Assembly: GCA_022510745.1 (NCBI GenBank)
Contig: JAFLSY010000011.1
Span: 62,001 to 126,000 of the forward strand
DNA length: 64,000 bases
Direction of reading: 5' to 3'
DNA from: Lachnospiraceae bacterium
GTDB lineage: Bacteria; Bacillota; Clostridia; Lachnospirales; Lachnospiraceae
Part shown: in pieces, positions 58,353-62,597 of the stretch
Numbering within the stretch: position 1 is the stretch's first letter
How the letters are laid out: each line of letters begins with the position of its first letter
Made by a program: the position numbers and the translations under genes
The notes under the pieces: model-generated
Databases searched by the model: none
Told to the model about the DNA's origin: nothing
What the model saw: the letters and a program-made list of their open reading frames with translations, nothing else

Positions 58353-58396
58353 GTGGGGCGGAAGAACAGAATACATTGAAAACCGTTTGAGTCTCG

Positions 58397-58473
58397 TGGT
58401 ATAATGATTCTGCTAACGCAGAATACATGCTGGTTTCACCGGCATGTCACCGCTTAAGCGGTGCATTATACCA
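58397..58473 (+). repeat. 77-bp cruciform-type inverted repeat (three hairpins in one outer stem)
   Basis: TGGTATAATG (58397-58406) pairs with CATTATACCA (58464-58473). Three hairpins fill the interior with no unpaired base between helices: ATTCTGC-TAAC-GCAGAAT (58407-58424), ACATGCTGG-TTTCA-CCGGCATGT (58425-58447, one G-T) and CACCGC-TTAA-GCGGTG (58448-58463). The outer arms are also extended -10 elements facing each other. It lies between the GNAT and the ExbB-like gene. Confidence 0.85.
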
Positions 58474-58539: not shown

Positions 58540-58570
58540 CTATGATATAGTGAATGACTAAGGAGAAAAG

Positions 58571-59080
58571 ATGGATATCATTAAAACTTTCTGTGACAAT
58601 TTGTTTGGATATGATGGGCTTATCGTTTTAATGGCGATAGGGAATTTTTTAATATACTTAAAGGTTCGGGATGAAGCAAACAAAGTATACAGCCATTTTA
58701 ACAGTGCAGACCGAATTGCCAATCTGAATGATGAAGCCAAAAAGGTGTTGCAGGAGAATACAAAAAAGGAAAAGAAAAAACTGACTGCGGCTGAACTTTT
58801 GGATTATCGGGAAAAAACGAATAAGCATTATTCATTTTACTCAAATTTTACTACGATATTTCCGCTTTTGGGAATGCTGGGAACGGTTATATCCTTGATT
58901 TTTATGACTGATTCCATCGGCACGGCAGCAACAGAGTCTTTTTTTGCAGCATTGACGTCGACTTTTTGGGGAATTGTAGGAGCATTGATCTTCAAAGTAT
59001 TAGATGCTTCTATTTCATATAAAATTGAAGATAATGAAAAGCATATGGAGTATATGTTTAATCCAAACAGAAAGAATTAG
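58571..59080 (+). CDS. MotA/TolQ/ExbB-like proton-channel protein
   Basis: A 169-residue membrane protein with three predicted helices: about 14-30, 93-111 and 125-145. A charged cytoplasmic loop lies between the first and second. The paired helices FPLLGMLGTVISLIFM and FFAALTSTFWGIVGALIFKV are the channel-forming core of the MotA/TolQ/ExbB family, with the small-residue and Thr pattern of that core. It lacks the long extensions of MotA and ZorA. An AAGGAGAAAAG site precedes the ATG. The next gene encodes a matching ExbD-like partner 11 bases later. Confidence 0.8.
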   Translation: MDIIKTFCDNLFGYDGLIVLMAIGNFLIYLKVRDEANKVYSHFNSADRIANLNDEAKKVLQENTKKEKKKLTAAELLDYREKTNKHYSFYSNFTTIFPLLGMLGTVISLIFMTDSIGTAATESFFAALTSTFWGIVGALIFKVLDASISYKIEDNEKHMEYMFNPNRKN

Positions 59081-59091
59081 GAGAGACAATA

Positions 59092-59751
59092 ATGAAAAAG
59101 AAAGAACTGATTCTTGATTTCACTTCTTTATTGGATGTCATAATGATTCTTTTGTTTGTGGTGATCAGTAATATGAATCAAGCTTCTTTAGCGATTAATG
59201 AAGAGGCAGAAATGGCGGTGTCGGAAGCACGATCACAGTATGCAGACATCAGTTCTCAACTGGAAGAGTTAAAAAATGAATATGATATACTTCAAAATGA
59301 ATACGACTACCTGAAAATAACGACTGACTATGATGCGGATGATGTGTCCGTATATGAAGCAACAATTGAAAGAATGGCAAAAGTTGTTCTCATTTGCAAT
59401 ACGGACGAGAATGATCTGACCGGAAACTATGAAGTGAAAATAAATATTTATTTAGACGAGAACATAAATGGTGAATCATCCTTTCTTGAATCGGTGATAA
59501 TAGAACATGATCTGAACTTATCAAGAGAAGAACGAGAGAAGGTTAACGCGGAACAAGTACTGAACGTGACAAGAGTATTATCCGGCGCATTGAGAGATGT
59601 AGACGAAGAGATGATATGGGTTTCTGTTCAATACGCATACGATGATGAAAATTTTTCTAATTCTGACCTAAGGATTATTAAAGAATCAATCAACAATTTG
59701 GAACGAAGTTTTTCAAAAACCTGCTACATAGATGAAATTAAATTATATTAA
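59092..59751 (+). CDS. ExbD/MotB-like plug protein with extracytoplasmic coiled coil
   Basis: A 219-residue protein. The N-terminal helix reads LDFTSLLDVIMILLFVVIS; the Asp in LLDVIMILLF is where ExbD/TolR/MotB carry the proton-conducting aspartate, and a second Asp is at position 9. A coiled coil follows (about 45-80, QLEELKNEYDILQNEYDYLK), then a soluble alpha/beta domain I do not recognise. There is no OmpA-like peptidoglycan-binding domain. AGGAGA precedes the start. It is the likely inner rotor or plug of the channel formed by the upstream protein. Confidence 0.8.
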   Translation: MKKKELILDFTSLLDVIMILLFVVISNMNQASLAINEEAEMAVSEARSQYADISSQLEELKNEYDILQNEYDYLKITTDYDADDVSVYEATIERMAKVVLICNTDENDLTGNYEVKINIYLDENINGESSFLESVIIEHDLNLSREEREKVNAEQVLNVTRVLSGALRDVDEEMIWVSVQYAYDDENFSNSDLRIIKESINNLERSFSKTCYIDEIKLY

Positions 59752-59765
59752 AGGAGACAATTATT

Positions 59766-60170
59766 ATGGGTAAGGTATTAGGAGTTATCGGTACAATTTT
59801 AGTTGCTTTTGCTATCTTTTGCTATCTTTTCTTCGGAAAAGGATTTGGACTTGGTAACGGTAAAGGTGATGGCGACGGTAATGCTAATGCAGTAAGCAAT
59901 GAACAAGATGTAAAAGAATCAGAGCCTCAAAATGAAATTAGTGAAGGTACAGGAGCGGATAATGAAATTACGGTAGTAATCGAAGTGAAGCAGAGTCAAT
60001 ATCTGGTAGATGGGAAGGAAATGACTCTTTCCGAGATAGAATCGCTGATCCAGGGTTATGATCTTGAGAATACGTCATTTATTATTGAAGATAATTATGC
60101 TGCTGCTAAAGCATGGGATGAGATCAAAGATTTGTTTTTGAGTTATGAGGTTAGTGTGGTGGAGCAGTGA
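59766..60170 (+). CDS. Membrane-anchored ExbD-periplasmic-domain-like protein
   Basis: A 134-residue protein. It has an N-terminal helix (about 4-24) without an acidic residue, a Gly/Asn/Glu-rich linker, then a domain from about 68: ITVVIEVKQSQYLVDGKEMTL...FIIEDNYAAAKAWDEIKDLF...VSVVEQ. This alternation (short strand, LSEIESLI helix, strand with Asp, helix, strand) is the ExbD/TolR periplasmic fold as I know it. So the fold appears separated from the Asp-bearing helix of the previous gene. AAGGAGAC precedes it. It follows after 14 bases and completes a three-gene unit. Confidence 0.65.
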   Translation: MGKVLGVIGTILVAFAIFCYLFFGKGFGLGNGKGDGDGNANAVSNEQDVKESEPQNEISEGTGADNEITVVIEVKQSQYLVDGKEMTLSEIESLIQGYDLENTSFIIEDNYAAAKAWDEIKDLFLSYEVSVVEQ

Positions 60171-60276: not shown

Positions 60277-61144
60277 ATGTTTAAGAGTAGTAAAATTTGT
60301 CGATTTTTAGGTGATATGCTAGAAAAATTTGTTTCCATAGCTGACGACACGAAACTAGAGAAAATTGATGTTGCAAACCTCACAGAGTCAATGTCCCCGC
60401 TAAATTGCATGGGTGCCCGACTATTGAAAAGGATGAAGCCCCTTCCTTTACCTCATGACAAGAGGTTCTACTCTTGGAAACAATTCTTTAGGAATGCGAG
60501 AAGTGATAGTCGAACTTGTCATGATGCAAATGCTCCAGCAGTTATAACATACACAGGTGGAACAACGGATGGTTCTAAAGGCGCAATACTTAGTAGTAAA
60601 GCAGTGAATGCACTTGCTCAACAATATCTTGTGAGTGAGCGTAATTTGCATCGTGAGAGTACTTGGATGCAGGTATTGCCACTCTTCATCGCCTACGGTG
60701 TAACTAGCTCTATGATGATTGCCTTGGCCGTTGGCATGACACAGATAATAAGGATTCCCATGGTTGAATCAATAGCAGAATTTTGCAAAAAATTTAAGCC
60801 AAATCATGTTTTATACGGACCGGCATACGGGGAAAATTTGCTGATGATAACGAAGATTTGGACTTATCAAATTTCATTGCCCCAACTTCCGGCGGTGATG
60901 CTTTACGCCCTGCTGTTGAGGAAAAAATCAATCTATATCTTCAGTCTCATGGATGTTCCTGCCCTATTGTGAACGGCTACGGCACGACAGAAGTCGGAGC
61001 AGGTGTGGCCATTAATTTTCCTCATGCATATAAAAGCGGTAGTGTGGACAAGCGGTTCCAGATGTGGATAAAATTATTCGCAAGAGTGAGTTGTTTCAGG
61101 TTTCCACTGACACCATATTACTGCGAAACTCAGACGAAGAGGCC
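60277..61144 (+). pseudogene. Decayed AMP-forming ligase/acyl-CoA synthetase
   Basis: The adenylate-forming P-loop VITYTGGTTDGSKGA is in one frame. After a shift near 60840, IAPTSGGDALRP and VNGYGTTEVGAG follow in a second frame. A third frame carries DKIIRKSELFQ-like C-terminal sequence. At least two frameshifts and a lost start make it non-functional. The order of motifs matches acyl-CoA synthetases. Confidence 0.85.
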
Positions 61145-61549
61145 GTGAACCGGAATCCGCTGCATTTGGGCAGTATCTATCTTGTAGTAAAGGATTTTGA
61201 AAAATCCGTTGTATTTTATGAAAAGTTTTTGGGTATCAGTGTTTCTAACCGTTGCCGCAGCGGAAATAAGTTTGTTGAATTCCATATCGACAACAAATGT
61301 CTCTCCTTGATGAATGAAGAAAATATCATAGGTCATTGCACTTCTCCGGAAGGGGATTACAAATTTGTGCAGAATTATTGGGTGGAAGATTTACGGGCAG
61401 AACATGAACGGGTAAAGGCTCTGCAGATCGGAGAAGTGACAGAAATTTTGGAAGCGTACCCCACCTATCACTATTTTCATATGCGTGACCCGGACAATAA
61501 TGTAATTGAGGTAACAGGCGGTTATACACCACAAGATGGAGCAGAATGA
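61145..61549 (+). CDS. VOC/glyoxalase-family protein, start uncertain
   Basis: About 134 residues of a vicinal-oxygen-chelate protein: LHLGSIYLVVKDFEKSVVFYEKFLG at the start of the fold, KFVEFHIDNKCLSLM in the middle and YHYFHMRDPDNNVIEVTGGY at the end. A GTG at 61145 gives a normal-length protein, but GAAGAGG is only two bases away. The frame is open upstream into the decayed ligase, so a longer fusion product is possible. The original start may have been lost. It overlaps the AlkD-like gene by four bases. Confidence 0.7.
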   Translation: MNRNPLHLGSIYLVVKDFEKSVVFYEKFLGISVSNRCRSGNKFVEFHIDNKCLSLMNEENIIGHCTSPEGDYKFVQNYWVEDLRAEHERVKALQIGEVTEILEAYPTYHYFHMRDPDNNVIEVTGGYTPQDGAE

Positions 61550-62331: not shown

Positions 62332-62405
62332 AGGCAAAACGATAGTAATTGACACGTAGGCAAAGTGAAACCCCAAAGAGTGGCAGCTCTTTGGGGTTTC
62401 TTTTC
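62332..62405 (+). ncRNA. Candidate antitoxin RNA opposite a small toxin gene
   Basis: A promoter TTGAAA (62297-62302), 17-nt spacer, TATAGT (62320-62325) would start an RNA near 62332. It carries a repeat of CGTAGGCAAA (62329-62338 and 62355-62364). It ends in a 14-bp terminator stem GAAACCCCAAAGAG/CTCTTTGGGGTTTC (62367-62400) plus TTTT. It converges on the small peptide gene on the other strand and would share this terminator region. Confidence 0.55.
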
Positions 62406-62443
62406 CGTTAACGGTGGAGTAAACCGTTTAGGCTAGTTACCGA

Positions 62444-62530
62444 CTAATCATCTCCATCTAGCCATTTGCATTTGTAGTAGGCAACTACACCTGCTCCGAC
62501 AGAGATTACAAACGATAGTAAAAGGCTCAC
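62444..62530 (-). CDS. Small hydrophobic peptide, candidate type I toxin
   Basis: A 28-residue peptide starting at GTG 62530 and ending at TAG 62446-62444. On the minus strand GGAAGGGGG lies seven bases before the start. The peptide has one hydrophobic helix (SLLLSFVISVGAGVVAYY) and a charged end (KCKWLDGDD). The shape, the conserved-looking CKWLDG end and the convergent small RNA with repeats match type I toxin-antitoxin loci of the Fst/holin-like kind. I recognise the pattern from memory only. Confidence 0.62.
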   Translation of the reverse strand: MSLLLSFVISVGAGVVAYYKCKWLDGDD

Positions 62531-62597
62531 GCAAGCACCCCCTTCCTGTTGCCAGTATTGGGGCGGTAACGAATCTATGATAAACAAGAATTTGTAG

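Follow-up and report, generated by a model that had tools for sequence, protein, structure and literature searches.

Within the window, a 64,000-nucleotide stretch of one contig from a Lachnospiraceae bacterium, we find three genes lying head to tail on the same strand, here called P1, P2 and P3. The intergenic gaps are 11 and 14 nucleotides, and a purine-rich Shine-Dalgarno site stands 5-9 nucleotides before each of the three starts. An earlier note, made from the letters alone, had described one tight three-gene unit resembling an ExbB/ExbD proton channel at this position, and the three-gene observation is confirmed. The features of the locus are as follows.

58376..58405, + strand: candidate promoter-like site, TTGAAA-N18-TATAAT, the second hexamer preceded by TG, 11/12 matches
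58560-58565, + strand: Shine-Dalgarno site of P1, AAGGAG
58571-59080, + strand: P1 gene, 169 codons, a minimal MotA/TolQ/ExbB-type protein
58883..58885, + strand: Thr105 codon of P1, equivalent by alignment to the GTV threonine of ExbB/TolQ (TolQ Thr145)
58961..58963, + strand: Thr131 codon of P1, equivalent by alignment to TolQ Thr178
59079-59084, + strand: Shine-Dalgarno site of P2, AGGAGA
59092-59751, + strand: P2 gene, 219 codons, a putative TolR/ExbD-type axle
59134..59136, + strand: Asp15 codon of P2, predicted proton-carrying aspartate, aligned with TolR Asp23 (PLLDV)
59751-59756, + strand: Shine-Dalgarno site of P3, AAGGAG
59766-60170, + strand: P3 gene, 134 codons, with a transmembrane (TM) helix, a Gly-rich linker and a predicted C-terminal ExbD-fold domain

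The promoter-like site is tentative, since such sites in the region are no more numerous than expected by chance. GC content is 33-38% across the triple, compared to 39-51% in the 4.5 kb upstream.

Predicted properties of the three proteins

P1 matches the Pfam family PF01618 (MotA_ExbB) at 44.5 bits, well above the curated cut-off of 22.9, and a 60-member P1 profile retrieves PDB chains of both MotA and ExbB, in agreement with the ExbB/TolQ core that had been proposed for the first gene. The protein is small (169 aa) with little cytoplasmic part, and has three TM helices at approximately residues 11-29, 93-111 and 123-141; hydropathy gives three such segments in 88 of 91 P1 sequences. Its FPLLGxLGTV and ALTSTFWG motifs align to the GLFGTV and ALIATAIG segments of E. 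coli TolQ/ExbB. The pore threonines are kept on the last two TM helices, Thr105 being invariant among 60 sequences and Thr131 conserved in at least 90%. In TolQ, Thr145 and Thr178 form a polar ring round the TolR aspartates (PMC12215075).

P2 has a single TM helix, N-in in the window protein, and one TM segment is found in all 85 P2 sequences. The helix carries the motif TSLLDV; across 60 sequences T11, L13, L14, D15 and I19 do not vary, and LLD is present in 76/76 usable sequences. The earlier placement of the aspartate helix in the second gene is thus upheld by an invariant Asp15 lying in the TolR frame. In an AlphaFold2 model (mean pLDDT 90.6), one continuous helix spanning residues 11-94 forms both the TM segment and a stalk, and is followed by a C-terminal domain of about 125 residues (96-218) with the predicted order beta-beta-beta-alpha-beta-alpha-beta, mostly at pLDDT above 90.

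The relationship of P2 to ExbD differs with the method of comparison. Pfam ExbD (PF02472) is the commonest family among P2 relatives (31/60 at E up to 0.05, best E 1.1e-5), and in one relative, L066, the match exceeds the curated cut-off (26.0 vs 25.4 bits) and covers profile positions 2-99, extending past the TM helix. The P2 of the window itself has no Pfam ExbD match. When the model is compared with the PDB, the top ranks go to RNase H-like and uS11/RuvC folds, with ExbD absent among the matches listed, so the agreement of the P2 domain with ExbD is one of element order only. By sequence, the P2 profile retrieves nearly all coiled-coil matches from the PDB, with MotB at E 1. No OmpA-like peptidoglycan-binding domain (PF00691) is found in P2.

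P3 consists of a TM helix (residues ~4-23), a Gly-rich linker and a folded domain of 67 residues (68-134), and a single TM segment is seen in 86 of 88 P3 sequences. The N-terminus is rich in Lys and Arg in most relatives, with a median of 10 such residues before the TM helix and fewer in the window protein. The linker is rich in Gly, Ser, Thr and Glu and has a median length of 46 residues (range 22-99). In one relative (L111 6283-6879) it is a (PTQA)n repeat, which recalls the Pro-rich region of TonB or wall-spanning linkers.

For the P3 domain the model reaches pLDDT 95-98, shows the order beta-beta-beta-alpha-beta-alpha-beta and has the ExbD/TolR periplasmic fold. Its best Foldseek matches are structures of ExbD with D-box, TolR, and ExbD with TonB, and in a VIA comparison with the PDB the top seven matches are all ExbD or TolR (Z 9.3 to 6.5), the first unrelated structure following at Z 5.9. 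The closest is E. coli ExbD 8p9r (Z 9.3, rmsd 2.1 over 68 residues); others matched are ExbD 8vgd and 8pek and TolR 5by4 and 2jwk. An ExbD fold in the third gene, as the earlier note had anticipated, is therefore supported by structure prediction. The Pfam ExbD sequence match for P3 is marginal, and the P3 profile finds no ExbD in the PDB by sequence, its best match being TatA through the TM segment. Although P3 holds the operon position of TonB or TolA, the S-x3-H part of their SHLS motif occurs in 0/88 P3 sequences, and so P3 fails this test for a TonB/TolA protein, consistent with the earlier statement that no TonB is present.

The note had further proposed that ExbD is split in two, with P2 providing only the aspartate helix and stalk and P3 providing the soluble domain in trans, the sum being one ExbD. 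The two locations stand, but P2 itself bears a folded extracytoplasmic domain, confidently predicted and with the same element order as the P3 domain. P3 does lie closer to the ExbD fold, P2 is not near ExbD in the PDB ranking, and in one P3 relative (L037) the Pfam ExbD match is confined to the soluble part, all of which would suit a split protein. Against this, matches such as that of L066 reach beyond the TM helix of P2, and P3 possesses a TM helix of its own. We consider a split ExbD unlikely. As P2 has its own domain, P3 more likely represents, on the predicted structures, an additional ExbD-fold partner rather than a missing half.

Conservation, selection and host

To survey the window's family we took one genome per genus, 299 in all, and searched for P2 and P3 independently. 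P2 was found in 12 genomes and P3 in 13, as adjacent genes in the genomes that they share; since independent searches reached neighbouring genes in the same genomes, the triple is not a chance arrangement. A P1 profile scan of 84,980 species genomes gave 326 relatives, of which 80 were kept. Together with the family loci these make 93 loci (a few are one contig reached twice), spanning Lachnospiraceae, Ruminococcus, Defluviitaleaceae and other Clostridia.

Among these loci P1 is present in 93, P2 in 91 and P3 in 90, and 90/93 have all three in the order P1-P2-P3. The genes do stay together across neighbourhoods; the earlier note had named the contrary as one of the outcomes that would refute its reading. 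In two of the exceptions (L061, L065) the contig end leaves no room. At L051 (4980-5519) a lone P1 without P2 or P3 lies about 770 nucleotides from the end of a contig that is labelled Bacteroides and is possibly mis-binned. Flanking genes vary between lineages, which identifies the triple itself as the conserved unit, and no functional partner recurs beside it across lineages in the loci surveyed. Within Ruminococcus only, patatin-like, metallophosphoesterase and M20 peptidase genes, as named from reading their sequences, follow the triple. Two hits of the P2 profile at the phylum level (G685, G378) have no adjacent P1 or P3 and were set aside, as they look like coiled-coil false positives.

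All three genes are under purifying selection, with median dN/dS values of 0.091, 0.130 and 0.165 for P1, P2 and P3, respectively, and all pairs below 0.37. P1 is rare class-wide, with 3 clear members in 391 genomes. In one Ruminococcus genus, the one that includes R. bicirculans, 27 of the 29 genomes have it. Four Ruminococcus genomes, those of R. bicirculans, R. albus, R. flavefaciens and Ruminococcus sp. FC2018, encode no PF01618 protein besides P1.

No Omp85 was found in the window's genome, where control genomes were positive, and no recognised ExbD is present. MotA and MotB adjoin on another contig (C16), which holds the sole OmpA-like domain of the genome. With MotAB elsewhere and neither a recognised ExbD nor Omp85, the genome is that of a monoderm without Ton or Tol, as had been surmised. 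The accompanying statement that flagellar genes are missing needs qualifying, as a flagellar-type MotAB pair does occur in the genome, albeit away from the triple.

A proposed motor and its alternatives

We propose that the triple is probably a motor of the MotA/TolQ/ExbB superfamily, driven by the proton motive force (PMF) and adapted to a monoderm envelope. By the mechanism established for the superfamily (PMC9389320, PMC12215075), the conserved residues of P1 and P2 would be what a 5:2 proton-driven motor requires; we infer from this comparison the stoichiometry, the proton flow and the rotation, and the contact of P3 with P1 or P2 is likewise part of the model. Five P1 subunits would form a membrane wheel round two P2 helices. 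As protons enter, Asp15 of P2 would be protonated and deprotonated against the threonine ring of P1 (Thr105 and Thr131), and this cycling would cause the P2 axle to turn or swing, its helical stalk extending the soluble domains outwards. P3 would be anchored in the same membrane by a TM helix of its own and, through its flexible Gly-rich linker, would bring a second ExbD-like domain next to those of P2, where it may either pair with them or pass motion to a partner in the wall or on the surface. Either way, P3 would occupy the place taken in diderms by TonB or TolA. The proposal draws on the PF01618 match and retained threonines of P1, the invariant Asp15 of P2, the Pfam ExbD matches among P2 relatives, the predicted fold of P3, the conserved gene order amid changing flanks, the low dN/dS values, the distribution in Ruminococcus and the lack of Omp85 and of a recognised ExbD in the window's genome. 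Several results weigh against it. The window's own P2 gives no Pfam ExbD match, and its domain ranks nearer to RNase H-like folds. The profiles of the P2 and P3 domains align in register over 23 columns, but with a probability of only 10%. P2 stalk length, compared with P3 linker length as a possible sign of contact, shows no clear covariation (rho 0.26, p 0.08), and no functional partner is a constant neighbour across lineages.

Comparison with known systems places the triple as a variant within the superfamily, since it belongs there and yet fails the tests for Ton, Tol, MotAB and Zorya. Tol-Pal shares the three-gene Q-R-A order, a third protein anchored by a single TM helix, an alignable threonine ring and TM aspartate, and, in the TolR soluble domain (5by4, 2jwk), the predicted fold of P3. 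Unlike Tol-Pal, the triple is found in a host without an outer membrane and with no Pal/OmpA partner beyond MotB; its P3 has an ExbD-like domain and no SHLS, and its P2 has a long helical stalk. Resemblance to ExbB-ExbD(-TonB) extends to the P1 profile, the fold of the P3 domain (8p9r, 8vgd, 8pek) and the Pfam ExbD matches in half of the P2 relatives (31/60), whereas the host is a monoderm, the ExbD fold resides in a separate third protein and this protein, judged by its lack of SHLS, is not TonB.

The MotA-MotB stator belongs to the same superfamily and has the same wheel-and-axle plan and a TM aspartate (PMC9389320). P2, however, has no OmpA-like peptidoglycan-binding domain, the window's genome has its MotAB genes on a different contig, and P1 is the sole MotA/ExbB-type protein of four Ruminococcus genomes. 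GldL-GldM, of gliding and type 9 secretion, is also powered by the PMF and has a long shaft protein outside the cytoplasm, but it is described as exclusive to Bacteroidetes (PMC9389320). Zorya ZorA-ZorB is likewise a MotA-like and MotB-like pair outside the flagellum; here, P1 lacks the ZorA tail, P2 lacks the OmpA domain, no Zorya effector-like neighbour recurs and PADLOC gives no match.

For the load of such a motor, the cell wall or its growth and division machinery is the likeliest candidate, although this is a guess from anatomy. The soluble domains of ExbD and TolR bind peptidoglycan in diderms (PMC10771500, PMC4646322), and a wall load would therefore require no outer membrane. More speculatively, and at somewhat less than even odds, the triple could represent a distinct class of PMF-driven envelope motor built to act on the wall of monoderms. 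This class would be near-core in Ruminococcus, several species having no other such motor, and the roles of ExbD plus TonB/TolA would be taken over by a pair, an axle protein bearing the Asp helix and an ExbD-fold protein outside the pore.

The same anatomy would also serve a non-mechanical purpose: P1 and P2 could form a gated proton channel or a PMF-dependent wall sensor, which P3 senses or plugs, with no load being worked. The minimal size of P1 and its small cytoplasmic domain would fit, as would the lack of a load protein recurring nearby. However, characterised members of the superfamily put the Asp/Thr arrangement to mechanical work (PMC9389320), and neither a regulator nor a kinase is a recurrent neighbour of the triple, such that we regard this reading as improbable.

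The literature regards ExbBD-type motors as belonging to Gram-negatives (PMC9389320), and where Ton systems occasionally occur in monoderm Clostridia they have been judged probably non-functional (PMC12204202). A vestigial or inactive Ton-like system derived from diderms would account for the patchy occurrence in the window's family (12/299 genomes) and the AT-richness in this genome, but is very hard to reconcile with purifying selection on all three genes and near-universal presence in one Ruminococcus genus, and the missing SHLS motif argues that the triple is not simply a decaying Ton system. A Zorya-like defence role, which the earlier note had entertained, or a motor carried as prophage or plasmid cargo is just as remote: Zorya does use MotA-like and MotB-like proteins and 2 of 60 P1 sequences match ZorA models, but PADLOC finds no match for P1, P2 or P3 of the window, P1 is without the long ZorA tail, no neighbour recurs, neither a plasmid match (P1) nor a phage match (P2) was obtained, and the genes are near-core in one genus.

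In the open-access literature searched we found no description of the triple, including its extra anchored partner. A three-gene motor that is under selection and near-universal in a genus of fibre-degrading gut bacteria would contradict the view that such motors are restricted to Gram-negatives or non-functional in monoderms. It would also raise the question of which mechanical work uses an engine of this kind in a cell without an outer membrane. Further, P3 may offer a natural case of the ExbD fold in a protein outside the pore, with a bearing on the origin of TonB- and TolA-like transducers.

Genomic setting and variant loci

In three lineages (L035/L036, L038 and L039) the genes form part of a five-gene cassette, in which P1 and P2 are accompanied by a pair of P3-type proteins and one secreted protein (L035 5392-8752; L038 6783-9820; L039 6696-9845). 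A tRNA_anti-like (OB-fold-type) domain is present in the secreted protein of L035 and in that of L039. L035 (1-9688) and L036 (4069-13756) share a block of at least 9.7 kb that includes the cassette and is 99.9% identical between two contigs of one genome, being either a real duplication or an assembly artefact.

In the window, the triple is directly followed by a pseudogene at 60277-61148, a broken acyl-CoA ligase (AMP-binding, profile positions 151-272 of 384) that runs on in another frame, as the earlier note had perceived. The toxin-antitoxin locus that it placed nearby was not seen among the ORFs of the 46-64 kb region, a few of which were scanned with Pfam, so that a small pair may still be present. 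A genome of the same genus that lacks P1 retains the PPIase-GNAT flank, with an ammonium-transporter-like gene in place of the triple (L138 2617-4386), and the absence of P1 from the same site marks the triple as accessory in the window's genome. The suggestion of accessory DNA thus holds for this genome, where the genes are AT-rich and absent from a close relative, but not for the family of genes as a whole, given its 27/29 occurrence in Ruminococcus. Further downstream, on the minus strand at 62356-62570, lies a match to the Rfam family SpF66_sRNA, a Streptococcus sRNA family, which scores 48.9 bits against a gathering score of 42 in a genome that is not Streptococcus.
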